Shown in pieces: positions 3,948-59,300 of a stretch of 64,000 nucleotides of DNA (positions within the stretch are counted from its first letter, which is position 1; every line of letters begins with the position of its first letter). This stretch comes from Ptychodera flava (lineage: Eukaryota; Hemichordata; Enteropneusta; Ptychoderidae). A program made the translations under genes and the position numbers. Location of the stretch: the NCBI RefSeq assembly GCF_041260155.1, contig NC_091934.1, positions 46,036,842 through 46,100,841 on the forward strand, given 5' to 3'. The notes beneath the pieces were generated by a model that ran no database searches, was not told the origin of the DNA, and worked only from the letters and a program-made list of their open reading frames with translations.

Positions 3948-6933
3948 CTAGGCACCAAATACTTTGGTCTTCACAACTACATAAAATCTCAATAATATTC
4001 CATAACCACTTCGAATTTCTTTCTTGCTTTCTGTGAGAGTTTTGTCTACAGACGCTTGTAATGTCTGTTTGGCTTTCTTGCCACCAAGCTGAGTTGCTAG
4101 CCAGTCTAATCCTTCATACAAACCACTACCATCAGTACAAGCAGAGCCTTGAATATCTGTGTGGTCAATTCATAATGAAGAAAGAAAATTACAAACAGTA
4201 TATGCCATGACACATAACAACTGAATAATCTTAATGTATTCTTACTATGGCAAATGCAGTCAATATGAAGCAAATTACATACTGCTATTTTATTGCGATA
4301 ATTCAAGCAGAAATCTGTCTCCACTGGTAATACCAATATAATGCACACAATAATTGCATAGCAGTGAGTAATTTGTTTCCTTTGCAAATGTTTCCATGGA
4401 ATATTTAAAGCTCTGATGCACTTAACTTTTGATGCATATTCCGGTATTTTTGTTATGTCTGTCACACAGAGAGAATATAGTCTCTTGTTATACTGCCCAA
4501 ATCATGTTAAGATATCTGATGTTCAATTTATCAATATAGCTTGTACACATATTATAACCGGTGTTGATGTAGACATCCAAATTTTCCTTCAGACCACAAT
4601 TTACTCATCAACAATAAAAGAGTACGCTGCACACAAGTCATCGTACTGCTACTTTGGATTTGAACATACTTTAGGGTTAAGGTTCAGAAAATTTAATTAT
4701 TTTATGAAACAAAAATATTATGAAAATCTATCACAATTCAAAGGTACATGTATTGTCCCTGTACCATGGTAGTGAAAGGTTAAACCTGTTCATCAAAATT
4801 CTCTGTAAGTAGGTCCACACTCCGCATTGATAACAGTTTCAGACAAAACTATAAGGTGAATGGGCAAAGAAAGATATCCATCTACTCACACCACTGTCTT
4901 TCTCTTATACTGTGCAAGTCCAACTTCTCTGTGATTTCCTGAACACTCATTGCATTGGGCAGATCCTGTTTATTTGCAAAGACAAGCAAGACTGTCTCTC
5001 TATACCCATCTTCTTTGAGAAAGCTATAAAGCTCATCCTTGGCTTCCTGTAATCTTTCTTTGTCATTGCTATCAACAACAAAGACCAGAGCATCAGTTTT
5101 AGGGTGGTAGTGCGTGTACATTGGTCTCTGTGACAAAGAAATTCAAGACAATAGGTTAAACCCAGAATTTGAATGGATGAATGGACCAAGGTACAAACAA
5201 ACCAACGTGAGCAAATATATAGAAAAATGTATATTTCCATAACGCTTGTACACAAGGGTTTGTTTGTACTGCCATCATGTGATCTTTGAGTGTACTGAGT
5301 TGGTAGGACACATTGCATCCTTTTTATTCAGGAGTAGAATCTTTCAATTTGATTCAATAAGCTGACTGTAAATTTCATCTGCTTTCTCCCAGTAAGTTGG
5401 AAGTACACTCAACATCATATGAACTTGCAGATAAAAATATCTTTTAAAATTTATTAATTTGATATACGACAGCTGTTTAGAACTGAAGTTTCTCACATTT
5501 TTGGATGTCAAGAGCTCAAGTGGAACTTTGCGAAAATTCAACTTGGTTGAAAAAAGATAAATAAGTCCACACTCTCTACTGAGTTTCAAACAGCTGTCAT
5601 ATATCAAAACAATATAATGTTGTTTCCTTGTAAGAAAAAAAGGACAAACAATATCAGAACTCACAATTTTGCATCTTCCTCCACTATCCCATGTTACAAA
5701 GTTGACACCTTTGTGTTCTACAGTTTCAACATTAAATCCTGAAAGAAAAAACATGCATTCAAACATCAGAACTTGAACCAGAGGATCTACAACACAATTG
5801 ATGCACATTTGTTGATCTTTGAAAATTGTACAAATACCTTATTTCAATTTTTTTCTAAAGTGACTCTTGGAAGTTGCAAATCATTCTATTTTTGTGGAAA
5901 AAACCCAGATCAAATCTGTACTGGTTATGTTATTTTAGGGGTCATCAAATAACCTAAATATGTATATCTTATGGCATAGAAGGTCCAAAAAGTGTATTAA
6001 AACAAGAGAACACAGAAACATTTATTCTGTCTGGGAAACAACAAACTTTTATGACTTACCCATGGATGGTAATGTTCTGACCATTTCACCAAGACGCAAT
6101 CTGTACAAAATGGTTGTTTTGCCAGCAGCATGCAAACCTATCAGATGTAATACAAAGGAAAGGTTGTAAAATACAAAGTATATCTTCAACTTGCATTGTA
6201 AGATGTTATTAATGCAGAGTCGTATCTACCTAACAAAACCCTTGGCATAAAACAGTGCCTTTAATCATGTCTGACGAATTGTAATATTTTCATATTTTCA
6301 TAATTCGGATGTGCACTAATTTTTTTTCCTTTTATGAACTTTGATGACTATATACTAGTACTACTACTATCAACATCCATTTCCCATACATTTCACATGG
6401 GTCCAGAAGCTGTAATTTATTTTACTACTGATTGGCTAATCAACGGTCAAAACAAAGGTCATGGCAAGACGTCACTGGTGAAGTACAGTTGAACCAATCA
6501 GCAGTGTCAAAAATGACGTCATATGGTAGAATTGTTCTGCAGGCCGCATTTCACAGCGCTTGGTCTCAAAACACGGCCGATTTCTTCAAGATTCATCGGC
6601 GTGATTTTTGAGGAGATGGTTAAATTTGTGATCCAACTAGGTATATGGGAGTGTAGTTTTGAATGTTTTGTGTGAGCGCACGGCCAGTTGACAAATCGGG
6701 TGGTGTGTTTTTTGAGTGATTGTGTTGCACACCTTGTGAGTATTTAGGTTGCAGTGGCGGGCATATCGACTACGGGATCAATTGATCGATCCGAAAATCG
6801 ATCTACTTAGCAGACGACCCAGCTAAGGAGCGCCTGTGGGTAGACCGTAGAGACTAGTTGCTCTACGCAACTTACCCAACATCAGGATTCGCACCTCCTT
6901 CTCTCCGAAAAGCCGTCTGATCGCGTTGCCCAT
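3948..6933 (-). CDS. Divergent ARF-family small GTPase, five exons, 218 aa
   Basis: ARF GTPases recruit coats and effectors to membranes in a GTP-dependent way. Coding exons on the minus strand are 6876-6933, 6060-6137, 5665-5738, 4890-5127 and 3948-4156; all phases agree. The start is MGN (Gly2 available for myristoylation), followed by a short amphipathic helix. The P-loop is GLHAAGKTT (residues 20-28; usual GLDAAGKTT). Switch 1 has IPSMG, with Ser44 where ARF1 has Thr48. Switch 2 reads WDSGGRCKI (62-70) instead of WDVGGQDKI, so the catalytic Gln is Arg67. ANKQD is at 121-125, and GLYEGLDWL lies near the C terminus. The protein runs about 38 residues past the usual 180, with a lysine-rich tail. 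It could be a lineage-specific ARF/ARL paralogue; I cannot assign a named subfamily. An in-frame upstream ATG exists at 7029-7027. Intron 1 carries a perfect CRE palindrome. Confidence 0.88.
6513..6522. promoter_or_regulatory. Perfect CRE-like palindrome ATGACGTCAT in ARF intron 1
   Basis: The 10-base palindrome contains the CREB/ATF core TGACGTCA. A CCAAT motif lies about 20 bp upstream and another ACGTCA core near 6470. It could mark an intronic or alternative promoter; function is inferred from the motif only. Confidence 0.35.
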
Positions 6934-7029
6934 GTTGCTCTGAATCACAGGCTCTAGAGTCAATGCAGGCGAACCGCTAGCCGCCACTGATACAATAAAA
7001 ATCAAAAGGTGTGTAACAGCGGCAGCCAT
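6934..7029 (-). other. In-frame upstream ATG adding a signal-peptide-like leader to ARF
   Basis: On the minus strand an ATG at 7029-7027 opens 32 codons that run without a stop into the ARF start codon. They begin MAAAVTHLLIFIVSVAASG, a hydrophobic stretch ending in small residues, as in a signal peptide. Most of this leader lies in the left 295-bp arm. Using it would block N-myristoylation at the MGN start. It may instead be 5' UTR or an upstream start that is skipped; the context around this ATG is weak (T at -3, G at +4). Confidence 0.45.
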
Positions 7030-7240
7030 GCACGGAGCCCGAGTAAATTTCAACAGACGGTTTCGCCCTCTTTTATCTCAAATACAACTTGCTTATTGGG
7101 GTCGATCGATGCTCCAGTTCATCAACTTCATGAAAAATCACACCAATATCCAAAATCTCTCTGTTAAGTCCATGAAAAAGCTGTGTTTTCGGAGCAGTGT
7201 CAGCTAGGAAACGCTGTTATCATACATGACCCACATTGAC
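6946..7240 (-). repeat. Left arm of a perfect 295-bp inverted repeat
   Basis: Every base of 6946-7240 equals the reverse complement of 10288-10582 (295 of 295, compared row by row, no indels). The match stops sharply at both ends. The arm lies directly upstream of the ARF start (13 bp from its ATG) and probably holds its 5' UTR or promoter. Confidence 0.97.
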
Positions 7241-10200
7241 CTATCACGAAATGTTCTGATTGGTTTTACTTTTAAGGGATACGTCATCCGTTTCAGGGGG
7301 TGCTACACTCGAGAGATTAGTTACACGTAATTACGTTCGATCAGTATCCGTAACGTCTTTGTCATGCAGTGTGCGAAACTCATGCAAAATCTCTACTGGC
7401 CCAGCGGGCCAGTAACTTTAAAAAATCACTGGCCCTGAAGGAAATCAACTGGTCCGATCATCAGGTCAAATCCAAATATAGTGGAGATATATACCTGCGC
7501 TCAGTCTAGGGGCAAGAATATGATGGGATTGAAAAATAAATAAAGACACCACTTCAAAATCCTAACATCAAACTGTTTTTTTATGCCTTTTAATTCTTTT
7601 ATTCTTTTTTAATTCTTCAAATGAAGATGACTATCAAAACCGAAAGTTGGGGCAACTGATCTCAGTGTTGAAAAACATGAAATCAGTAAAAGGTTAAGCA
7701 CTACACATAAACGTTTTCATTTCCTAAAATAGCCTTTCACAACAAATATTTCTAACATTGAGAAAAAGAGCACAAGCGTGGGCTTGAAACACGTCCCAAC
7801 ACAGAAATGCTAAGCATCCAGAACTCCGATCAGGGATGGGTAAGTTTTGGCAGCACAAACGCCGGATCACACACAAATGGAGTCAATACAACACTTGACT
7901 CATGATTCTGACTTCTCCCTTTTGAGGGACTCGTCATTAAAGTCAATGAAGGGAATACAAAAAATTAGGTCAACTGATAAAGAGAAATACTACTGAAATG
8001 TCCAAACCCACGTTAAAAGACAAATCACAAATTTAAAATGTAAGCGTAATCTTTACAGTGACCAACTTGAGGCAAATGGCCATCAAGGTCAATGAAGACG
8101 GTACCATGCACAATGTTTAAATATCGGACATTTACTTTTTACTATCGACGTTTGACGTCCGACATGTATCCGTCATCGTAACGATCTATATATCTGGTCT
8201 AAAATCGATACTAGACAATACAAGAATGACTTGCCTCTTGTCGCTGCACGACGGGTTTGCCTATATTTTACCCCAGGCTGATACATATCGGCGATTTTAG
8301 GACTCTTTATAGCTAGGCAATTCTGGAATGACTGTGAAATCAAAGATGTTTACTCGATATTTATCGGCGATTGGGACCCCAATATCGTCACCAGAATGAC
8401 TCATCTCGTGTCTCGGGCACGTGTGGTCTATTTAAAATCACCGATGTTTATCGGCGATTTCGGGACAAACGTCCGATATATATGTTGGAGATTTGCATTG
8501 CCACCTCACAGATCTTGCCAAGCCCGACTTCATCATTGCGGCATCAACTTCGATACTATACTTGTCAAATCGGGGTAAATAATCGATGTATATCTGGGAG
8601 ATCAAAACCTTACAGATTTGGCCAGCGGTCTAGCCAGGCCCGACTTCGATAGTCCTACTTTAATTATACGATACTAGACTTGTCTAAAAGATGGGTAAAT
8701 ATCCAATATATATGGAGGTTTCACCATCTTATAAATCTGACCTTAGTTTTAGTCAAGGGTCTATGATCTGACCAAACAATTCTAATTTCGATATTGTGTT
8801 GCCCAGTAGCTGCAAATATCCGATATCATATAATGTTGAAGTGTCATCGAAATCCAGTTTACCTCGACACATGCAACTCGATCGATACGCTAATTATTCT
8901 TTATGATCACGACGAGATCTCCACCCTAACACATGTAACGTCTTTCGCTTCGATGCAGTACCGTATCTTTGAATAATTTTGTCAGGTATTTAGCTTAGCA
9001 AAACATTCTGGTAAACTTCTGTACAATAGGAAAAGCTACTGGCCCGTCTTTAGGAACAGCAGGACATATTTCAAGAGTTACTGGTACGTCCGGCATGGAA
9101 ACTGCTGGTCTCCGACCATCGGGTTAGCGTGAATTCCGCACGCTGTTGTCATGTGATAACCAGACGTTGCGTGCGTGTGGAGCAGTAGTTTGTAACGTCG
9201 AATGACACTTTTACACGTGGTCATAATTACTAATTATTATGAAATAGTATTTTTTTATAGATTTTCTAATGATTTCCGCGAATTTTGACAAGCAACCTCG
9301 TAGAGTATCACTGTAAATTGGCAATTATCTTTGAGGCCAAAAAAAAGAAAATAAATTGTGCTGTTCTGTTCAGATAACATGGTTTTCAAAAATAAGGTAG
9401 GTACGTCGGCAGGATTTTTTTTTCTTTTTACAAAATATTTTTATTTTTAAATATGCATTGTTCAGGGGTTCAGGGCGCTCAAACACTGGCCATAACATTT
9501 CCAGATCACAATGTACCATATAGGTATATAAAGGAAAAACATAAGACACCCTCTTTCAAGCAAAAATCAAATGCCAAGTATCGAACGTGTGATTTTACGG
9601 ATTTTTCTTTGTTTTCTTTTTAGTTCCTTGTTTACGTAGCTCCAAAAAAAATTAGGGTCGGCAGATAAATAAATAGAGTAGGTCGGGTTATCGGAACAGC
9701 ACAATATTTTTTGTTTGACCTAAGAAAACTTCGTATTTGCAACAGTACAAGAAGTTCTTGCTATGAGTTCCTGATACGAACGAAATGTAGTATTCCACAT
9801 TATATCTGACGCCGTCACAAAGATTTCTGTAAACCATGTAAATAATTTTATCTAATAAGAGAATCGGCAAGTTTAATTCGAGGGTACGACGAACTAAAGT
9901 AGTCCTCGCGTAGAGAAAATAATGTTTCTTAGAGCTTGCACGAATTTCGCTTGTTTCACATTGTACTACACATGATCAAAACGAAAACAAAATACTATAG
10001 CAGTAGCCTGTACAATATATGCTTCCACTCCCACTTGCACTAGGTGCAAACCCCCTGTTAGGTATGGCAACAAGTCAGGAATGTTAAAGAAAATTTCATT
10101 CAAAGTAAGATAAGAAGTGAAAACATTAATGAGGAAAACTGTAAATCTTACTTACCAGTATGAATACGCTGCCATAGCGAAGCTTGTGGGGCGGACAAGT

Positions 10201-10287
10201 GAAAGTTAACCGATATTTTGAAATTACGTTCGTAAAACCGTCATCCAATCACAAGCTTCCCCTTGTGGGTCATGACCATTGACCCCA
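7241..10287. other. 3.05-kb spacer between the inverted arms
   Basis: No convincing coding frame is present. The left edge has CCAAT and ACGTCA motifs. ACTGGCCC-type sequences at about 7396-7450 and about 9035-9110 may be the ends of an old insertion. The centre (8100-9000) has repeated short ATCGATA and ATCGGCG motifs. Near 10190-10260 there is an imperfect inverted pair built on CAAGCTT. The spacer could be a shared intergenic promoter region enlarged by a transposon, but I recognise no element family. Confidence 0.5.
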
Positions 10288-10582
10288 GTCAATGTGGGTC
10301 ATGTATGATAACAGCGTTTCCTAGCTGACACTGCTCCGAAAACACAGCTTTTTCATGGACTTAACAGAGAGATTTTGGATATTGGTGTGATTTTTCATGA
10401 AGTTGATGAACTGGAGCATCGATCGACCCCAATAAGCAAGTTGTATTTGAGATAAAAGAGGGCGAAACCGTCTGTTGAAATTTACTCGGGCTCCGTGCAT
10501 GGCTGCCGCTGTTACACACCTTTTGATTTTTATTGTATCAGTGGCGGCTAGCGGTTCGCCTGCATTGACTCTAGAGCCTGTG
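10288..10582 (+). repeat. Right arm of the perfect 295-bp inverted repeat
   Basis: Exact reverse complement of 6946-7240. It sits 254 bp upstream of the ZMYND12 start and reads outward toward that gene, as the left arm reads outward toward ARF. Both genes therefore carry the same 5' flanking sequence. Confidence 0.97.
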
Positions 10583-10588
10583 CCTTGA
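10499..10588 (+). other. 29-codon frame in the right arm, signal-peptide-like
   Basis: The same ATG and hydrophobic leader (MAAAVTHLLIFIVSVAASG) as in the left arm opens here but stops at TGA 10586-10588, just outside the arm. It could act as an upstream ORF in a ZMYND12 transcript, or be chance. I have no evidence that it is translated. Confidence 0.3.
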
Positions 10589-10709
10589 ACCATTAACCAC
10601 GGACCGTGCTTGAACCCAAGGCAAAGTGCAGAGCTCTTTATCTCGCGAGAGTAAAGAGAGTCTCGGAAATCCCGTGGTTGACTTGTGTCGCGGTACGCCT
10701 GCGCAAAGC

Positions 10710-10721
10710 GTTGATAGCAAC
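10710..10721. promoter_or_regulatory. Candidate RFX X-box upstream of ZMYND12
   Basis: GTTGATAGCAAC is an imperfect inverted repeat with GTTG and CAAC half sites, similar to the RFX X-box found in ciliary gene promoters. It lies about 115 bp upstream of the ATG of a gene whose human orthologue is flagellar. The match is partial, so this is suggestive only. Confidence 0.35.
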
Positions 10722-10835
10722 AAGCTACAACACAGAGACGGCTGCTCCGGCAAAAGTTGCCGACGGAGTTTTTCCATTTTCACGATCTCGAAATTTCCAC
10801 CATATCCCGTTCAGCCTGATAGCAGCGGCACAAAT

Positions 10836-13800
10836 ATGACTTTGAACCCTCTTGCGAACCCTAAAGGAGTCAAGCTCCTTTGTGAGCTCTGCCAAAAACC
10901 TGCATTTATCCAATGTACGCAGTGTAGAGTGACATATTACTGGTGAGTATGTACATCTGTACCACCGTTCTTGATTTGTACAGTACCGATCAGTATGCTA
11001 ACTCCGTGGTATATTTCATGAGTGCAAAAGATATAACGACTTAGCAATAGTGTAACGGTTATCGCTTGTGGTTCATAAGGTTTTAGTTTCCATGTTCCGA
11101 ATCTTATCTTTTATTAACAGTTACTGCAATATATCCGGGGAATATACCCGGGAATATATCAGACCCTCTAATTATAAACGCGAGACATATGTAATTCTTC
11201 TGGATTCTTGTCGCTGGATCCTTCAAGCCCTACCACGTAGTACCATAGACATGCGACAGTATACTTACTGTCTTCCCCCCCTCTAATTGTCTATGGTGCA
11301 ATGTATGAATTCATTGCGCAAATCACTAGGTCAGCAAACAGTATTGAAAGAAGGTATGACAACATAATATTCAAAACTATTCGTTGATGTAAATGAAAAA
11401 AATAAGTGTTATTCATACACAAACCATTTTATCAACAAAATTAAACTCCCAATGGAAACGTATCAAAATCAGCGCATATTTCTACCATTAAAACAAGTTG
11501 TTATATAATGAAAACATACAGAATACACTAAGAAATACATAGATATTTTTTATATAATTATTATATTTATCTTGTTATGTCAGAAAAAGATTGAACTTAT
11601 TTCATATAATTTTTATTTCTACGAAATGTTATGCAAATCCTGTATTTACAAGCAATAAATTATTATTACGATTATTATTATTACATAAATGAATGTCAGG
11701 CCACGAAGAATTCTGCTCTATTTCAGGTAGTAAGAATTAGAGGGGCAGGTTTTTTATCAACTTTATTTCTGAGCAAATTGACTGGCTGTGCACAACTTTC
11801 AAAAGTGATCAAATAATTGAAATCACATAAACAGTAAATATAAATAACCAATAATGTTAGAACCATGAGTTGAGTACTCCTGCTTCAAAGGCCTGTGTCA
11901 GGTGTTATATTATTTTGTCTGGAAATTTACAAACTAGATTACCCTTTTGATGGAAAACAAAAGGCTATAACACCTCCATAATCCTTGTGCAGACTAGGAC
12001 AAACTTGAACAAACTTTGTGAAAGCTGTATCTGGAACCTGCAAATTTAGTAATTGATACAATGGTACTACTATTTCTCTATCACATGCTATGGCATTTGG
12101 ACCATTGTGTAATTATTTTAAGGTTGGAACTTGTTTCTTTCTTCAGTGGCAAAGAACACCAGAGAGCTGACTGGGAAGGTATACATGAGAAAATATGTCA
12201 ACTTTTAATACCATTGAGAACAATGTCACTGCCATTCTTACCATCAGAAGAAGAAAGAAAGAAGAGAGAGGATGAGAAATTACGCAGACAGGTAATATAT
12301 GCAAGTTGCTATGTGATAATATGACTTATTACACAGACAGGTAAATATGCAAGCTTCAGTTTGAAAGTATGACTTACATTAAACAGACAGGTAATATATG
12401 CAAGCTGTAGTTTGAAAGTATGACTACATTTAATAGCGCTGATCGCAAATGACGTCACTGTTCTCTCTCATTAATATGCATAAATAAACATTTGTCCGCA
12501 TTTTCTGCATAAACGACGAAAATAAAACCTGCTAGTGTTAGAAAGGCTATTTAGCGTCACACTTATTCGTATGAATTGATAACTGAGACTACAAGCTGCA
12601 ACAACAGCCGCGCATACAACGACAAAATTTGTCCGAATTTCAGCATATTTGTCAGAAAGTCGCGCACGTGCAGCTATATTTAGTAACAAACCCGAAATCG
12701 CGATCAACGCTATTACAAAGACAGCTGTTATTTCTAAGTAAAAGCGCTACAATACAATGTAGTGAGTTAGTTTAGTTTTGGCACACAGTCAGCAATCTCT
12801 AAAAGCTCTAAACCTGCTTTCTTTCAGCTCCACATGATAGAATTGACAAGGACAACTGGACAAAAACTTCTCTTTGAAGGCAAACATGCCCAGGCTGTAC
12901 CAGCTGCTATGCAGTCACTGAGATTTAGTATAGATGTCCATGGTTTAAATAGCATTGAATTAGTTCCTTCCTATCTCATACTAGGAGAAGCAAGCATTGG
13001 TAAGATAATCTGCATATTAAGAGAGTTTTCATGATGGAAGTACCTCCAACCATACTTGAAAGAAGAAATCATATTGCAAAACCGTCAATCTATATTGTCG
13101 ATCTATACCATAAAATGATGGAAAAATATTAATTTTTTAATGACATTTATTGTATTTGTTTATTATGATATGATATTTTATGATTTATGCTTTGTATGAA
13201 ATGTTGATGCTTCACATCATAATAGTGATAATGACAGCACACTGGACAAGTAGTTGGATGACAAGGAAATTAACAACGAAATTCTCAAAATTTTGTAACA
13301 GTTTTTTGGCCACAAATTAATCGCTTGCATTTTTATTTCAAAATACTGATTAATAAAATTGTTGCCTGAACAAGTAGATATTTCACAATTAAAGCTAGAA
13401 TGTGCCTTGGGGACAGATACATATATTCAGACTCGTAAATATTGACAATTCTTCTCTGTTGTATGACTTGTTTGGGCTCATTTTAAAGCTGTCTGAGGAA
13501 AGAAAATTTCCCTTACTGTTTTGAAAACAGAAAATTTCATTTTTCTCCATTTTGAATTTTTGATATATCAGTAAATCTTGGGTAATTTAGTTTCCTTATT
13601 CCAAACTTTTCATGCTGATGAGATTGATTGCTGATTGAAAATTTTATGGAAATAATTAAAAAAAATTTAAAGACTTTCACTTTCAAGGCCTGTACTACTT
13701 TAAACCAGCTCCAGTTTCATAGGGAAAAGATAGTTACATGGCAACTCTATGTAATATCTACCTGCTACATTTGTACTCTAGGTCTTGGTAAACTGTCACA

Positions 13801-23372: not shown

Positions 23373-26300
23373 TCAAGTACATTTCCATGCCGACTCATCT
23401 AATTCTTGAAGTCTCAGCACAGTTTTCCGTTTCCATAGAAGCCAGAGAAAACCAATGAAGAAGCAGATGATGACTTCAATATAATAGCCATCAAAATCAG
23501 TAACACAGTGTCCACCAGCCTTTGTACATTCCTGTAAACAAAGAAAATATAAACGTTATAAACAGTTTTGAAAAGATACAACAGGCAGACTGCAAGATGT
23601 ACATACATATATTCATGTATACAGACAGATGGATAGACAGACAGACACAAAAACACAAACACTTGGTTTTCAACTCATCAGATACATGTAAGCTTTCATT
23701 TTGTCATATATATCCCTTTCCCTGCCAGACAGTATCACTTCCCTATCAGCCAACTCAGTGAAAAGCAATATTGAGCCAAAACAATACATATTTCCACCAT
23801 TTGGCTTGGTCTGTTCCAACAGCTTTAGTCCTGGAAATCATCTTTGCAGTATCTGTAATTTCAGGGGCCTTGAAATGTTCAATTTTTTTGTTAAAACACA
23901 CCAAACGGGACATATTGTACTTCACTAGTTTTAACGAACTTGACTTGATGGTGAAATATTAACTTGGCAGGAAAAGGGTTAAATCACAAAATGGAAGCTA
24001 AAATCTTATTATCAAAATCGATTGTCTCTGATTGAGTATTGTGGTACAAATTTGACATTTTATCGTAGCTTAGATTTTAACACAAAACAAACTGTACTGC
24101 ACTTCTTCTATAATTACTTCTCATTCTTTGTGAGATTTTTTCACTTTTGCTTGCTTATCATCCTGATCTCAAAAACTTTTCACATCCAACATTATTGTCA
24201 CAGTGGTTTTACTGGTAGAAAAACTTTCGAATATCGATATTACCTTATCTTGATGTTATAGAAACCCTACATTGAGTATCTTGTGTATCTTGATTGTAAA
24301 GGAGTAGAATATTACAAAATTGTCACATATTTTTGTGTGCTGAGAGAGGCTATTGTTATCAAAGCAAGATGACACAGTTTATGAAATTTTACATGAAATG
24401 ACCATAATTTACCAATTCCTTCTCAACAGCCTCTGATTGGCTATGCAGTGGCTCCCTCATACCCCTGATTTTGAACTCATGTAATCCAGCTTAGCAAACT
24501 GGTGTAGCCAGTCTAGTCTGGTTTCGTTACACATTTGGCTTGCGACTGACCTAGCCAGACCATTGAGGGCACATCAGTGTAGGTAAGACATTATAAAACC
24601 TGTAGTGAACCAGGGGCTGGGAGAGAGTGTATTAAGTTTACATGAGAATCCACCAAATGAAGCTGGCACATCATGAGGGTGCTATTTGTCATCCACACAG
24701 GATGGCCAATGACAGAGAAAGGGTTTGGAATTCTACCGACCTCAACATTCATCTTGCTGTCACAGTCCAATCCCTGGATCTGACCATCAATGCAAGACTT
24801 CCAAGTCAGATTATCAACAAACCATAGAGCCATTGTACTTGGCCAATTGCCACCAAGGTTAGACAGCGTGTTCAACAATGTCATGTATGTACCACCAATG
24901 GCTGGATCACTGATTTTAGCATGGAATGCCATTCCACCAACAAACATACAATACAAGGTTATCTGAAATTTGAGTAAAAAAAATTCAAGTTTAGACCAAA
25001 TAGCTAAAAAAGGCATCCTACGTACAAATAAACTTGAATCTCACTTATCTATAAATTATAAATACTTATGTCCAATATACTTCTAATTATTTGAGCCTTG
25101 TTATTTGCTTAAAATTTTAAAAAATCTTCTACATGTGATACTAAACCCCTGCATCACAACAAAGAGATTGTACTCATCTTTCATAAAAAATGTTATTATA
25201 TAAATTTTAGGAAAGTATAATATTTGTAGATTCCTAAAGATTCAAATATTCAAAATTCAAAATAGTTTGTGGTAATCCTTTAGGAAGAAATAAATATTTA
25301 CAAAAGACAAGTCATCGTTGATGACACAGTCCCCACTTGTTAATGGGTACTTTGATTACAGGTCCTCAGAGAGGATAAAGTCCTCTTCATTACATCTGTG
25401 ATAAAAATACTTTTGAATAAATTCGCTTGATACATGTCTGAGTTGTAGTTCAGGACATGAAAAAAATCGTAATAAAATGGCCACACGGTGGCCGTATTGG
25501 ATCGTATCAAAAAACAAATAAATGTGCATATGTATGACATAGGTCAATGTCCTTGTAGCAAATTTGATTAAAATTGGTTGAGATATGCCTGAGTTATGGC
25601 TTGTACATGAAAAAATCATAACTAAATGGCCGCACAGCAGCCATATTGGATCGTATCACAAAACAAATTAATGTACATATGTATGACATTGGTCAATCTC
25701 CTTGTACCAACTTTGAATAAATTCGCTTGATACATGTCTGAGTTATGGTTCTGGACATGAAAAAATGTAATAAAATGGCCACACGGCGGCCATATTGGAT
25801 TGTATCACAAAACAAATCAATGTGCATGTGCATGACACAGGTCAATGTCCTTTTACCAAGTTTGAATAAAATCAGTTGAGTTATGCCTGAGTTATGGCTC
25901 TGTACATGAAAAAATCGTAACAAAATGGCCGCACGGCGGCAGTTGAAACATGCCTGAGTTATGGCTCTGTACATGAAAAAATCGTAATAAAATGGCCGCC
26001 TGGCAGCCATATTGGATCGTATCACAAAACCAATCGACGTGCATCTGTATGACATATGAAGTAATCCTTGTACCAAGTTTGAATGAAATCGCTCCAGGCA
26101 TCTCTGAGATATCTGCGTGAACGGACGGACGCACGGACGGACGCACGCACACACGGACGGACGCACACACGCACGGACATGACCAAACCTATAAGTCCCC
26201 CCGGACGGTGTCCGTTGGGACTAATAAAACATCCAAAAGCTTTTGTTTTTTTCATAAGTTCAAAGATGAGGCTACAGAAATTGGGTCTCATAGAAAATTA

Positions 26301-29300: not shown

Positions 29301-32300
29301 TTGGTAGTTGCACTATTGAAATCAATAATTTGTAAGTTCCAATGATTCCTGGTTCTGTATCATCAGACGGCTCTGCTTTTTCTCTTTTAAACCACCATAC
29401 CAACGATGTAGTGATTAGAAAAACAAAACCCCAGAAATATAGAAAACCTGGGAAAAAATAGGAATGCAAGAATGACGACATGTAAAATACGTCTTTCATA
29501 CATTAAAACAATTATTGAAACTATTGATTTATGAATGTTGAAAGAAAGGAAACTGGATTTTTACAATCTCTCTTCTTGACATTTTAATTAAATGAACTCA
29601 GTAATCAGATCAATGCAAATTGAAATCGATCTAAATGTAGAAAAAATTTCAAATGAGCACACAATATGGTAAGGATGTTAAATGCAATGCATAATTCCAG
29701 GCTGTTTGCACACAAGACTACTATAACTTCATATACATTTTTGTCTGGTATGGCAATTTTCATCATAATTGTCTCAAAATAGAGAATATTTTCCTATTTT
29801 TTATGAAACTTCATTAAATATTAGCAAAGACTGGTTTGCAACAATAACAGTTACTGTAAATTGACTTGAACCTATTTTTTCCGCTACTTATGGATCTTGT
29901 AGAAACTGCAGAAAGGTGACTTGTATCTTTTGTGGTATTGAGCTTTTTAAAAACATGGCCAAATGACATTGAAAGTTTTTCTTAACTATAAAATAAGATA
30001 ATAATAAATTAAACAAGCGACCTAGCGGCCGATATAGCTCCGCTGTGTTTATGTAGAGAATAACTAGTTTTGACACATGTTGATGAAGAAGGTGGAAATC
30101 TTTGATAGCTCAATGCAGTGGCCAGAAAAAAGTGGCTAAAATAGCTGCAAAAATACACAATTGAAGATTTCATCATACTTTGAATATATCACATCGGATC
30201 ATCCCTAAGAACATGTCAACCAAAGCTATCTGATGAGTAGTTTTTTGAAAATAAAATTTTCTGACCAAAAATAGCAACAATTGCCCCCAAAAATAAAAAT
30301 TGCAGATTTCATCATAATTTCAAAAGATCAAATTTAGTTCATCTGTAGGAACCTGCATATCGAATTTCAAAGTTATCAGACCAGTACTTTTCTAGAAACA
30401 CATTTTTTGACCAAAAATAGAAAAATTGCCCCAATTGCAAAAAATACGAAATTGCAGATTTCCTCATTGTTTCAATAAATATCATTAAGATCATCTATTG
30501 GAACCTGTATACCAAATTTCAAAGCTATCAGATCAGTAGTTTTGGAAAATACACATTTTTTGACCAAAAATGGCAAAAATTGCCCCCAAAATACAAAATT
30601 ACATATTTCATCAGAAATTAAATATATTTTACTTAGTTTATCAATTGAAATCTGTATACCAAATTTCAAAGCTGTTAGACCATTACTTTTTGAGAAACAA
30701 TTTTTTTGAGCAAAAATGGAAAAAATTGCTCAAAAAATTCAAAATTGCAGATTTCATCATAATTTCAATAAATATCATTAAGTTCATCTACAAAAACCTG
30801 TATACCAAATTTCAAAGCTATCAGATGAGCAGTTTTGGAAATACACAGTTTTTGACCAAAAATGGCAGAAATTGCCCCAAAAGTACAAAATTACAGATTT
30901 CATCAGAAATTCAATATATATTACTAAAGTTCATCTGTAGAAACCTGAATACCAAATTTCAAAGCTATCAGATGAGTAGTTTTGGAAATACACATTTTTT
31001 TACCAAATATGGCAAAAATTGCCCCAAAAATACAAAATTGCAGATTTCATCATAATTTCATAAATATCATTTAGTTTATCTGTAGGAACCTGTATGCTGA
31101 ATTTCAAAGCTACCAGATGAGTAGTTTTGGAAATACACATTTTTTGACCAAAAATGGCAAAAATTGCCCAAAAATTACAAAATTGCAGATTTCATCAGAA
31201 ATTAAATATATATTACTTAGTTCATCTATAGCAACCTGTATACCAAATTTCAAAACTATCAGACCAGTACTTTTTGAGAAATACATTTTTTGACCAAAAA
31301 TGGCAAAAATTGCCTAAAAATGTAAATTTGCATATTTCCGCACAATTTGAACAAATCTGAAATAGATCATCCCTAGGGACATACGTACCAAATACCAAAG
31401 CTATCTGACTGGTAGTTTTGAAGAAGATTTTTAAAGATTTTTTTACCAAAAATGACAAAAATTGCCTTAAAAATACAAATATGCAAATTTCACCACGATT
31501 TGAACAAATCTGACTGAAGTCACCCTAAGTAAACTGCATATCAAATTTCAAAGCAATCGGACAATCACTTTAAGAGAAGAAGATTTTTTTACCAAAAACA
31601 CCAAAAAATGCCCCAAAAATACAAATATGCAAATTTCACCACGATTTGAACAAACTTAAGTGATGTCACCAAAAGTGAACTGCATATAAAATTTCAAAGT
31701 AATTGGACTTGTGGTTTCAGAGGAGAAGGCAATTGTTGACGGACGACGGACGACGACGGACGACTGGACGACAGATGACGACAGAAAATCAACCTATTTG
31801 ATAAGCTCTGCGTCGCTGACAGCGGAGCTAAAAAATTGATGGCATGTTTTGGAAATGTTGGGTAATGAGAGTAGTAATTTTTTGTTTTGTTTATTGTACC
31901 AAATAAACCAAGACAACAAGATATCCACTATCAATGGTTTAACATAAAGATCATTTTAAATATCCTACTTTCCTGAAAAATATCAATGAACAAACAAACA
32001 TATCATTACATTTTCGGTTGCTGCCAATAATAATTGCCAGCAGCATACAAAGCTTGAATTCAATGACAAGGATATCAAAATTATACTGAAAAATAAAGGG
32101 AAAATCTCTTACCAGATAATGTAACAATTCCATAGGGCAAAGGTTCTGACCGTAGGTATTTGTTACAAAAATCGGATGATTCCAGAGCCAAGAATAAAAC
32201 GTTTCCTAGAAAGTACCCTGCTGTCTGTCCGACTGTGTTACAGGTAGACGCATAGCCAACATTGCGTCGCGACAACATGGTCAATGCCCAGCCATCAACT

Positions 32301-32878
32301 GCAATGTCCTGAGTAGCAGCCAAGAAATTTAACATGAAAAATGTAACGGTCAAGGTGAACACATCTGGAATAAAATCTTCCTCTCCGTTTCCGAGTAAGT
32401 CTGTGACATGTTGAGATAGCACAATCATAAATATACCAATGAGATACTGTGTTGGGACAAGCCATGATTTTCTCCTTCCAAAACTTGTGGAGTAAAGGGC
32501 ATCAACAATTGGTGCCCACATAAGTTTGACGCTAAATGGCCAATACACAAAACTAAACATTGCCTGCTGTTTATATCCTATATGGCGACTTTGTAATACC
32601 ATCGGAATACTCCCTGCCAATCCCAAAGGAATTCCTTGAAGGACATACAAGAACAACAGTACAGCTATATTAATTTTGTCCCCATTTAATCCTCTTCCCC
32701 CATCCATTGAATCAGATTCAGATTCAGATTCTGTTTCAGCGTCTCCCGTTTCTTCTGAATCCAACCGATCTTTCCTTCTTTCAGGGAGAGATGCTAGGGG
32801 TGCATGCGGGAAAAGCAACTCTGAATCCAAAGTAGTTTGGTCCACTGGTGAGCTTGGTATTTTCCTTTTTCTTGGCAT
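23373..32878 (-). CDS. SLC33A1: Acetyl-CoA transporter SLC33A1, six exons, 545 aa
   Basis: SLC33A1 (AT-1) moves acetyl-CoA from cytosol into the ER lumen for protein and ganglioside acetylation. Coding exons on the minus strand are 32113-32878, 29263-29447, 27754-27938, 26722-26842, 24741-24962 and 23373-23531; phases agree and total 545 codons, against 549 in human. The N-terminal ~65 residues are polar with an acidic Ser/Glu run. Then come many membrane helices. Diagnostic blocks: LFLYVLQGIPLGLAGSIP, FGRRKSWLVPTQY, ATQDIAVDGWALTMLSR, NVGYASTCNTVGQTAGYF, ISKYTAGPRP, LIVWWTP, GGTYMTLLNTLSNLGGNWPS and DGYYIEVIICFFIGF. Exon 5 ends at an unusual donor, GTCGGT. Introns carry a Helentron-like element (25307-26223), a TTAA MITE, a 65-bp minisatellite and another Helentron-like element (30012-31833). 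PPP1R7 starts 2.3 kb away in the opposite direction. Confidence 0.96.
25307..26223 (-). mobile_element. Helentron-like non-autonomous element, copy A (SLC33A1 intron 5 to 4 side)
   Basis: The left end is ACAA, then the perfect hairpin GTCATCGTTGATGAC (25311-25325) and ACAGTCCCCAC. The interior has about four units of roughly 150 bp containing ATGGCCGCACGGCGGCCAT-like palindromes and GTATGACATAGGTCAA. The right end has ACGGACGC microsatellite units and GGTGTCCGTTGGGACTAA. It is the same family as 57417-59000, in the opposite orientation. Confidence 0.75.
27262..27357. mobile_element. TTAA-ended palindromic MITE, about 95 bp (SLC33A1 intron)
   Basis: TTAAACCTGTCTCC at the left and GGTGAAAGGGTTAA at the right form an imperfect palindrome ending in TTAA. 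Similar copies are at 42623, 45919, 54197 and 60914, with a partial one at 49021. Confidence 0.6.
28205..28725. repeat. 65-bp minisatellite, eight copies (SLC33A1 intron 2)
   Basis: ATGCCATACTACAGATGGA recurs every 65 bp from 28205; one copy is one base shorter. Copies are nearly identical, so the array is recent or homogenised. Confidence 0.92.
30012..31833 (-). mobile_element. Helentron-like non-autonomous element, second family, copy F
   Basis: It begins AACAAG, then the hairpin CGACC-TAGC-GGCCG (30018-30031, one G-T pair) and ATAGCTCCGCTGT, and ends ACAGCGGAGCTAAAAA. These are clear subterminal inverted repeats. Between them are about ten units of roughly 147 bp with AATTTCAAAGCTATCAG. 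A GACGACGGACGACG microsatellite lies near the right end. No coding capacity; it is in SLC33A1 intron 1. Confidence 0.8.
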
Positions 32879-35143
32879 CTTTTCTTCTATCTCTATTTAA
32901 AACGTGACTTTTTTACAGATGTACCTATTCAAAAACAAACAAAAAAATTCATTCAGAATACACCTATGATAACTGATAAAGGGGCATGGTTTTTGAAGAG
33001 CCTGATGCACACATTACACATTCTTATTACTTGTAAAAAGGAGTTGTGTATAGCATTCGTGCGACACTCTATGTGTTCAGACGTTTTCCCCTTGTCCTAC
33101 ATTATGTACAGCTCTTCCATTGATCAGTTTATAGGATTTTTACAAAGGTTTGCTGCAAGAAGTAGAACGGTTTTCCAATGAAAGTGACAGCCCCCTGTAC
33201 TAATTTGACCGATACTGCACAAACATGTCGAATAATGGTTTACCATATGGTGGTTTCCGTACCGGCATGTTTAAATGGTTGCGACTCTCGGGTTAAACTG
33301 CACACACCACATGGTGGGTGTTTTGCAATTGGGTCTAATTTTAAACCGACCCTTGGCATAGCAAAGACCATTAATTAACCTACCCGTGAATTCAAAATGT
33401 GAAAGTTTTAAATGTACCTGTTAAAATAAGTGACACGATTGGTTGATTTTTGACACGGCACTTCACAGAAGCCAATATCTCATATAGACTATGATACAAA
33501 TAATTACATTTCCTACTAGTAATTCATCTTTTTAAGGCACGGGGTTTGTGAGTCTTGTTCCGTACGGTACTTTGTTCGACTTATCAGCAGTTCTCCAATA
33601 AAAGGTTTCCTAAGATGACAGAGCTGATCGTATCGAGGTATTGTGCGAAAACTTCATACGTGGCATTACCTGATTGTTCGATGCGTCGGCATTTATCACA
33701 GCAAATACCTGTGTCTTCATACAGTATGCTTCAGCACATAGCTTGTGTTTGTCGACGTACATCGGTTTGCTATTCGTTTACGTGTACCATGACTGGCAAC
33801 TTCCGGAAATTCCGGGGAGTGGCTTGAGCTACTGAGGGCGCTGTGAATAATATGTATCCACCGTATGCATTGTCGTATGCATGGTATGTATACACGCGTG
33901 TATGAGAAACATGAATATACTATCGTATACATCGTAATATCGTAATATACTATGGTATACGTCCATGGATGGGCAGACTAAACTTCATGAAATTTAAATA
34001 GCATGCTACACAATTTTTACATACATTTATTGCAAAGGTTTTTTTTTAAGCAGGTGAGAAGAAGTCACCTTATTTCTAATTTTACCTTGTGATCATGAAA
34101 AAATCAAAACACAAATAATGAACACAAATATTTAGTTGTGTCCCAAAATATGAAACATGTTGTTCCCCCTCTCTGAACAGTGGAAGATAGGCGAGGGAAC
34201 TTCAAAATTATGAGTCAGAAAAGGGTTACTTGAAATATTTTTGTTGTTTAGGCATCTTTAAAAAGCAGGAAAAAAATTATGTTTTCATGCCCCCTCTCCA
34301 AATATAGTTCTTATGAACAGATCCTAAGATTACTACAGGTAAAAGGGATATTTTCAACAAGTTACATAACCTCCATATTAATTAATTAATTAATTAAACA
34401 TTCTTATATAATATCTTTAATCATTTTCAGATCATTTACAGCTTTAAAAAGCTGAAATTTTCATGTTTTCAGAATATCTTCACCAAAATATATATTTATA
34501 TTTATAAGCTATTGCTACTCTGTAACATTAGGCCTAAGAGAGAACTAGTTTGTTCAAAATAAATAACTCAATTGAAGTCGAAAGGCGAAAATGCAGCTAA
34601 TGCTTTATCGCAAGCATCACGCTTAAGTTATTTCAAATTATTTATCGCTTTGCCATTAGTTCAATGAAATACAAATGTACACATTAGGAATGATAATAAT
34701 AATATTTTATTGCTTGCTTGTAAATATTGGATTTACATCACAGTTGTGGCAATAAAAGTGTGATATAAAAATAAGTTCAAATTTTCTCCAATAGAGATAA
34801 AGTAATACAGTATAATAATAGTAGCTAAAAATAAATAAAACTAGGTATTTCTTTGTTTATATAAAGTAAAAATATAATCTGCAAGGTGTAAAAGATAACT
34901 CTTGGTTTGTTACTAGAGAAATAAGCTGATTTTCAGTTGTATCGTTTGGGAAATTGATTTTACTAAAAAAGTTATTTCTTTGGACTTTGTATTTCTGACA
35001 GACTTATAAAAAGTGTTTCATCTTCAATACTGTTGGTGTTAGGAATATGAGAGCAGTATACGCGGTACTCAAACATATGTGCCGAGGTCAGATTGACCTG
35101 GTATGACCTTTCCCAGCATGCCTTTCTCCGTAACAAGTTCAAA
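32879..35143. promoter_or_regulatory. Shared 2.3-kb intergenic region of SLC33A1 and PPP1R7
   Basis: The two start codons face away from each other across this stretch, so both promoters must lie here. A patch at 33860-33960 is rich in GTATAC and TATACACGCGTGTATA palindromes. ATTAATTAATTAATTAA lies near 34378. Only short, motif-free frames are present. Confidence 0.55.
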
Positions 35144-56300: not shown

Positions 56301-59300
56301 GTTACCTCTTGCCTACCATCCCACTTTTCAATGCGGGCAAGTTAAAGGGACATAAGCTGTAATTGTGGCAAGTTTTTCAGCATTCTGCTTATGTATATCA
56401 ACTACTATGTCTGACCCTAATCCGTTTGTCATGCTGAAATTTTGAGTGTTATTTTCATCAACACAGCTTGTATGTGTGTAGTGATCATTGTTTATTGTTT
56501 ACAAATGAATTCTAGTCCGGACTTGAATACAATTTTCAACAATAACAATGTAGATTATACTCATATAGGTTGTGTTGATATGCTAAATAGTTGGCATTAA
56601 ATTACAGTTTAGGGATTCAATGCAGACAGTGAAGGGAAACCACAAAATTAAAGTTCTGAAAAAATAGCCAAAAGATACAGCTTATGGAACCTTAATCCCG
56701 GGCCTGCTGTAACACCTACCTGTACACCCACTGTTTTGATTGGTAGAAGTGTGGCTGTTAAAACATTTGCCACCACCCAACTATTGACTGTGAGAGAACT
56801 TTATGGAGGCTGTTACAACACCTACCTGTACACCCACTGTTTTGATTGGTAGAAGTGTGGCTGTTATTGCATCTGTATGACTAATCTTCCGAAGCAATTC
56901 TCTTTCTTGGCTTGTTGTGCTACTTTTCAAATGACTCATCTGGGTTTGGGGCTGAAAATATCAAGACAAAATAATATATCAGTTTGGAGCTGAAAACATC
57001 CAGACAAAATAATGCATTAGCTTTGAAAATATGTCACATGCTCCGATGACAAAATAAAAGTATTTTGTGGCGTAAACATACCTTACTGAATTTTTTGAAA
57101 TTGTTTTAAATGGAAAGTAGATCATCTAAAGCAGGGAGGAGGAGAGGGGGCAGAATTATTGCTACGGTTTAAGGAGATTGTGTGGGGACCTAAGTATCAT
57201 TTCTGTTGTCCTCTTCTTTTAATGATATTCTGAGGGGAACCACTATAGCATGACTGGGCAATGCCAGTAAAATTTATCCCGATTTAGGCCTTAACAAAAC
57301 GCTGTAACAGAAATGTTGAAAAAGCAAGTACTATTTGGAATAAAACAATTTTTGATGTGAGAATTGTAGGGAAATTAAATAAACTGTTAGTAAATTTGTA
57401 CGATGTCCACAGTGTTTAGTCCCCACGGACACCGTCCAGGGGGACTTATAGGTTTGGTCATGTCGCGTGTGTGTGTGCGTCATGGCGTCCGTGTGTCGTG
57501 CGTCCGTCCGTTCACGCAGATATCTCAGAGATGCCTGAAGCGATTTCATTCAAACTTGGTACAAGGATTACTTCATATGTCATACAGATGCACGTCGATT
57601 TGTTTGTGATACGATCCAATATGGCTGCCAGGCGCCATTTTATTACGATTTTTCATGTACAGAGCCATAATTCAGGCATGTTTCAACTGATTTTATTCAA
57701 AGTTGGTACAAGGACATTGACCAATGTCATAGATATGCACGTCAATTCTTTTTGTGATACGATCCAATATGGCCGCCGTGCGGCCATTTTGTTACGATTT
57801 TTTCATGTACAGAGCCATAACTCAGGCATATCTCAACCGATTTTATTCAAACTTGGTACAAGGACATTGACCTATGTCATACATATGCACATCAATTTGT
57901 TTTGTGATATGATCCAATATGGCCGCCAGGCGGCCATTTTATTACAATTTTTCATGTACAGAGCCATAACTCAGGCATGTTTCAACAGATTTTATTCAAA
58001 GTTGGTACAAGGACATTGACCAATGTCATAGGTATGCACATCAATTTGTTTTGTGATACGATCCAATATGGCCGCCGTGCGGCCATTTTGTTACGATTTT
58101 TTCATGTACAGAGCCATAACTCAGGCATATCTCAACCAATTTTATTCAAACTTGGTACAAGGACATCGACCTATGTCATACACATGCACATTGACTTGTT
58201 TTGTGATACGATCCAATATGGCCGCCGTGTGGCCATTTTATTACGTTTTTTCATGTCCAGAACCATAACTCAGACATGTATCAGCAAATTTATTCAAAGT
58301 TGGTACAAGGAGATTGACCAATGTCATAGCTATGCACATCATTTTTTTTGTGATACGATCCAATATGGCCGCCATGCGGCCATTTTGTTACGATTTTTTC
58401 ATGTACAGAGCCATAACTCAGGCATATCTCAACCAATTTTATTCAAACTTGGTACAAGGACATCAACCTATGTCATACACATGCACATTGACTTGTTTTG
58501 TGATACGATCCAATATGGCCGCCGTGTGGCCATTTTATTACGTTTTTTCATGTCCAGAACCATAACTCAGACATGTATCAAGCAAATTTATTCAAAGTTG
58601 GTACAAGGAGATTGACCAATGTCATACATATGCATGTTAATTGTTTTGTGATACGATCCAATATGGCTGCTGTGCGGCCATTTTGTTATGATTTTTTCAT
58701 GTACAAAGCCATAATCAGGCACATATTTCAACCAATTTTAATCAAAGTTGGTACAAGGACATTGACCTATGTCATACATATGCACATTGATTTGTTTTGT
58801 GATTCGATCCAATATGGCCACCATGTGGCCATTTTATTACGATTTTTTCATGTCCTGAACTACAACTCAGACATGTATAAGCGAATTTATTCAAAAGTAT
58901 TTTTATCACAGACCTAATGAAGAGGACTCTATCCTCTCTGAGGACCTGTAATCAAGCACCCATTAACAAGTGGGGACTGTGTCATCAACGATGACTTGTT
59001 TTGCTAAGATTTGGGAAGATCGGTGAATGATATTGGAACACAAGTAATATTTTTGCTGTCCTCAGATGGGATTGCCTCAATAGGATTGCAGCTGTAAAAA
59101 TAAATCACAGAAAAGACAGAATTACATAACATTGGGAATATTTCTTGACTTCTAAATATGAATGCATATGAATGCATGCCTTTAGTCAGACACTGTTCAT
59201 TCATTATGAATTTTTTTGCATCATGAACAGTAATGACATCTGCCAAATTCTTGTTTACTTACTTTATTTTCAGCATTGTAGAAGTCTACGATGAGTTTGA

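Follow-up and report, generated by a model that had tools for sequence, protein, structure and literature searches.

A perfect 295-bp inverted repeat between an ARF-family gene and a MYND-finger gene of Ptychodera flava: a possible recent inverted copy of ARF 5' DNA

Introduction

Template switching and microhomology-mediated break-induced replication are both described as sources of precisely copied inverted segments, and for the very short inverted segments treated in PMC8755829 the second of these is favored. The human-chimpanzee microinversions reported there measure 17-33 nt and are all flanked by inverted repeats. At a much larger scale, single-copy DNA touching gene ends has been duplicated in inverted orientation around chromosomal segments at Drosophila inversion breakpoints, with inverted duplications described for inversions 2h and 2q of D. 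mojavensis; in that account the duplications run from ~1 to 7.1 kb and accompany large chromosomal inversions (PMC3355041). A third kind of arrangement is described in Caenorhabditis, where near-perfect inverted repeats are maintained between divergent genes; in that case the genes on either side are paralogues, and the arms in the example given are 2,207 bp long with a spacer of 126 bp (PMC1803023).

The locus described here, found in a 64-kb window (the whole stretch of DNA that was analyzed), resembles each of these in part. Like the products attributed to template switching or break-induced replication, it holds an exact reverse-complement copy of nearby sequence, but one that is 295 bp long, lies 3 kb from its match, and has no provable junction microhomology. 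As at the Drosophila breakpoints, inverted duplications that touch gene ends surround a segment, although on the scale of 295-bp arms and a 3-kb segment. As in Caenorhabditis, the repeat lies between two divergent genes, yet it separates unrelated genes and has 295-bp arms around a 3,047-bp spacer. However striking as sequence, an event of this ordinary kind belongs to a known class of structural change. We tentatively propose, at something short of an even chance, that a 295-bp stretch from the 5' end of the ARF gene was recently copied in inverted orientation about 3 kb away by template switching or microhomology-mediated break-induced replication.

Results

The two arms are identical and end abruptly. 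Positions 6946-7240 and 10288-10582 are reverse complements at every one of their 295 positions, and no further base matches on either the outward or the inward side, just as an earlier note on this DNA had described when it called the arms perfect and sharp-edged. A repeat search of the window recovered the same arms, and a chance origin of 295 exact matching bases is excluded. The pair thus has the opposite orientation, the shared neighborhood, and the match beyond chance (295/295, 3,047 nt apart) of a local inverted duplication. The parts of the repeat are as follows.

Left arm: 6946..7240, minus strand (outward orientation, toward ARF exon 1); 295/295 match; proposed native copy, with ARF leader or promoter-proximal DNA.
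Spacer: 7241..10287, no strand; 3047 nt between the arms.
Right arm: 10288..10582, plus strand (toward the MYND-finger gene); 295/295 match; proposed derived copy.

When the whole window was scanned for inverted pairs of at least 50 nt (n = 37) and the longest 25 were considered, the arm pair was the sole one among those 25 with 100% identity. The other 24 of the longest 25 all link tandem-repeat blocks near 25.5-26.1 kb and 57.5-58.9 kb. These large dispersed blocks (25461-26135 and 57497-58895) lie in opposite orientation ~32 kb apart and are built of tandem units of ~150 bp, with the 24 pairs showing 81-98% identity. No other full copy of the arm was found within the 64-kb window, and matches to viral contigs (exact 37-mer) and phage records were absent, as expected for animal DNA. 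The arm has a G+C content of 44.7%, compared with 35.4% for the window. Because no difference was found in 295 positions, for which the 95% upper bound on divergence is ~1% (3/295), the arms should be young, recently converted, or an artifact; these are the options that had been listed before, and all of them are kept as candidate explanations below.

The spacer contains a single stop-to-stop run of at least 100 codons, 104 codons in length, and this frame has no Pfam match. No Rfam family reached the gathering score in the spacer, and the whole window yielded neither an RNA family at the gathering score nor a tRNA gene. The stretch 8220-8713 contains degenerate direct repeats, spaced by 170 and 120 nt, and TATCGGCGATT occurs there three times in exact form, at 8286, 8362, and 8449, and nowhere else in the window.

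The arms read outward into two unrelated genes, as had been claimed, and Pfam identifies both an ARF protein and a MYND finger. The left gene, on the minus strand, encodes an ARF-family GTPase whose 200-residue spliced protein (junctions partly placed by eye, sequence cut at residue 200) matches Pfam Arf at E 1.6e-64; its closest solved chain is an ARF1 (E 1.6e-74). The right gene, on the plus strand, matches zf-MYND at E 1.4e-10 in its first two exons joined, and an open reading frame downstream in the gene gives TPR matches that fall below the Pfam cut-offs. This combination of MYND plus TPR is consistent with a putative ZMYND12 orthologue. The start codons lie 12 nt outside the left arm (ARF, 6933-6931) and 253 nt outside the right arm (MYND-finger gene, 10836).

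ARF exon 1, coding part: 6876..6933, minus strand; 19 residues plus the first base of the next codon; donor located, and the spliced protein matches ARF1.
MYND-finger gene exon 1, coding part: 10836..10942, plus strand; ATG at 10836; donor GTGAGT at 10943 placed by eye; zf-MYND once joined to exon 2.

The ARF protein differs from ARF1 at nucleotide-site positions encoded on the minus strand at 6060-6137 and in the exon starting at 5738, reading GLHAAGKTT for GLDAAGKTT, PSMGFN for PTIGFN, and GGRCKIRP for GGQDKIRP. With the last of these changes, Arg replaces the catalytic Gln, which we take to be Q71 in ARF1 numbering, and the gene may possibly be a GTPase-impaired paralogue. Elsewhere in the window, minus-strand exons at 32081-32896 and 24594-25040 match the acetyl-CoA transporter family (Pfam Acatn, E 4.7e-66 and 3.2e-20) and are presumably SLC33A1-like.

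A new observation, absent from the earlier note, is that the first intron of the ARF gene contains a third copy of the arm, in diverged form.

Third arm copy, diverged: 6544..6792, plus strand (the right arm's orientation); corresponds to arm positions 25-291; within ARF intron 1.

Aligned to the arm, this copy shows 156 identities, 79 mismatches, and 46 gap letters, for a score of 222 against a maximum of 188 in 500 dinucleotide shuffles. Its best blocks, 6723-6760 (38 nt, 76%) and 6595-6614 (20 nt, 80%), are collinear with the arm to 1 nt. The controls were 786 mutually overlapping pieces of 471 bp from both strands, all of them clear of the left arm and of 10188-10700; in this set the two pieces containing the intron copy reach 222 and 184, and the best of the rest reaches 167. 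Compared with the whole left context, the intron sequence scores 298, which none of 1000 shuffles equaled; compared with the right context it scores 265 (0/300 shuffles as good). The intron copy suggests a trace of an earlier inverted duplication of the ARF 5' region.

The DNA around the intron copy bears on which of the two perfect arms is native. Extending the intron-copy alignment into the left inner flank gained 58, a gain reached by 43/1000 shuffles, and extending it into the right inner flank gained 33 (263/1000). Extensions into the outer flanks were not significant (left, gain 18, 201/1000; right, gain 5, 639/1000). Simple local alignment of the intron flank was equaled by 44/500 shuffles for the left inner, 207/500 for the right inner, and 75/500 for the right outer flank. 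A seeming homology of the intron flank to the left outer flank (0/500) was discarded: it arose from overlapping pieces, and 1212/2000 shuffles did as well once the pieces were non-overlapping. The intron copy compared with part of the right outer flank alone likewise gave nothing significant (1885/2000 shuffles as good).

CCAAT-type motifs add a second comparison.

CCAAT-type motif AACCAATCAG: 7256..7265, minus strand (outward); just inside the left arm, with CCAATCA at 7257.
CCAATCA: 10245..10251, plus strand (outward); close to the right arm's inner edge.

A second occurrence of the 10-mer AACCAATCAG, at 6492, lies upstream of the intron copy. Measured from CCAAT, arm position 25 is 50 nt away for the intron copy and 47 nt for the left arm, compared with 67 nt for the right arm. 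CCAAT boxes are common in promoters and can converge; CCAATCA has 18 occurrences in the window, counting both strands, of which 4 fall within 6000-11500, and 37/2540 control pieces also have some 10-mer in common with the intron flank. Because the flank of the intron copy fits the left inner context better, and because of the spacing of AACCAATCAG, we weakly favor a native left arm, with the right arm being a recent inverted copy.

Comparing the flanks of the two arms with each other gave different results inside and outside. The inner flanks are unlike (at 80, 120, 200, and 400 bp, the observed score was equaled by 161, 474, 548, and 979 of 1000 shuffles), so that the tract alone seems to have been copied. 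The outer flanks are marginally alike (47, 13, 13, and 14 of 1000 at the same lengths), which would point, marginally, to an older and longer repeat. No junction microhomology is provable at the arm edges: one 11-mer, TGTGGGTCATG, is common to the right inner flank and the arm start (4/2000 shuffles as good) and is weak after window control, its score being matched by 132/6316 window pieces in either orientation and being the best of eight comparisons.

The sequence between each arm and its gene indicates how far the two genes may share a 5' region. Unless an upstream exon is spliced on, the left arm must contain ARF leader or promoter-proximal sequence. On the other side, a palindromic CGCG element lies outside the right arm.

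Palindromic CGCG element TCTCGCGAGA: 10641..10650, no strand; between the right arm and the ATG of the MYND-finger gene; the sole exact one in the window.

Elements of this kind are found in TATA-less CpG-island promoters and are conserved in vertebrates (PMC6192621), and TCTCGCGAGA may be used as a promoter element in this organism as well. Because it sits between the arm and the ATG, the right arm is probably upstream of the gene's own core promoter. The earlier note held that the same 5' flank serves both genes; this was overstated, since a shared leader is plausible for ARF, with 12 nt to its ATG, and doubtful for the MYND-finger gene, with 253 nt and a CGCG element of its own.

An ATG within the arm opens a reading frame (MAAAVTHLLIFIVSVAASGSPALTLEPV) that resembles a signal peptide by eye, at 7029-6876 on the minus strand and 10499-10588 on the plus strand. 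From the left arm it continues in frame into ARF, where it would bury the N-terminal Met-Gly, and from the right arm it reaches a stop 6 nt past the arm. The idea that this frame is a conserved exon was rejected, as the intron copy has a stop in the same frame and Pfam returned nothing at E <= 1.

Discussion

Our leading proposal, tentative as it is, can be stated as a short series of steps. The left arm, with the leader and promoter-proximal DNA of ARF, would be the source; a template switch during repair or replication, or microhomology-mediated break-induced replication, would make the inverted copy; and the copy would have landed, recently, upstream of the divergent MYND-finger gene. After such an event ARF would retain its own leader, and the MYND-finger gene would gain 295 bp above its own core promoter, with little or no transcript in common. 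A clean 295-bp copy does not predict the marginal likeness of the outer flanks, which counts marginally against it.

We rank the template-switch copy first, followed by a staggered-break inversion, misassembly, gene conversion, and, last, a transposon. In a small staggered-break inversion, the 3,047-bp spacer would have been flipped and the staggered ends filled in, so that the 295 bp of overhang ended up on either side as an inverted pair. Such breaks are expected to leave DNA that was once single-copy duplicated in opposite orientations around the inverted segment (PMC3355041); inverted duplications do flank the spacer, and sharp edges and perfect identity fit. An inversion that kept the ancestral left outer junction predicts that the arm's ancestral inner neighbor now lies beside the right arm, however, and the flank of the intron copy fits the present left inner flank slightly better, which is a weak argument. 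We regard inversion as unlikely. An assembly artifact, whether a chimeric join or a haplotype error that created the second arm or gave the spacer its orientation, is also an improbable source, if one to be taken seriously. An exact repeat of 295 bp exceeds common short-read length, and a short-read assembly could therefore misjoin there. The usual palindromic-read artifact has little or no spacer, unlike the unique 3 kb that separates these arms. The diverged third copy records an earlier local duplication of the arm sequence, yet does not vouch for the right arm.

Conversion and homogenization of inverted repeats are known (PMC1803023; PMC8604942), and an older inverted repeat homogenized by arm-to-arm gene conversion or template-switch correction would accommodate the third, diverged copy, the outward-strand CCAATCA that each arm has close to its inner edge, and the marginally alike outer flanks (13/1000 at 120 bp). 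A converted tract would usually sit in a longer, partly diverged repeat, though, and here the inner flanks lack significant homology and both edges are abrupt, so we give this history a small probability. The locus, with its long identical inverted ends and an interior free of long open reading frames, could also be read as a 3.6-kb non-autonomous DNA transposon whose terminal inverted repeats are the arms, a reading we consider very improbable: no target-site duplication of 2 to 10 bases lies outside the arms, where the adjoining 8 bases are CTCTGAAT and CCTTGAAC (5/8 alike); no further full arm is present in the 64-kb window; the single spacer frame scanned has no Pfam match; and the left end of such an element, if mobile, would be 12 nt from the ARF ATG.

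A hairpin with a 3-kb loop, raised in the earlier note, is formally possible and unlikely to matter, because inverted-repeat instability drops as spacer size grows (PMC1803023) and the spacer here is 3,047 nt. Pairing between the transcripts of the two genes, as a hairpin or double-stranded RNA, was discarded by argument, as divergent genes would carry the arm in the same sense. More speculatively, the 5' end of ARF could be a recurrent site of inverted duplication, with an old product in intron 1 and a new one 3 kb upstream, perfect arms kept identical by arm-to-arm conversion, two unrelated divergent genes wired to the same promoter-proximal sequence, and a spacer that flips in populations; we regard this as a long shot.

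The diverged copy in the ARF intron suggests more than one duplication of the arm sequence. If the perfect repeat is real, it would be a clean and young case of 5' regulatory DNA copied in inverted orientation beside an unrelated gene, and it would offer a natural test of whether such a copy alters expression.
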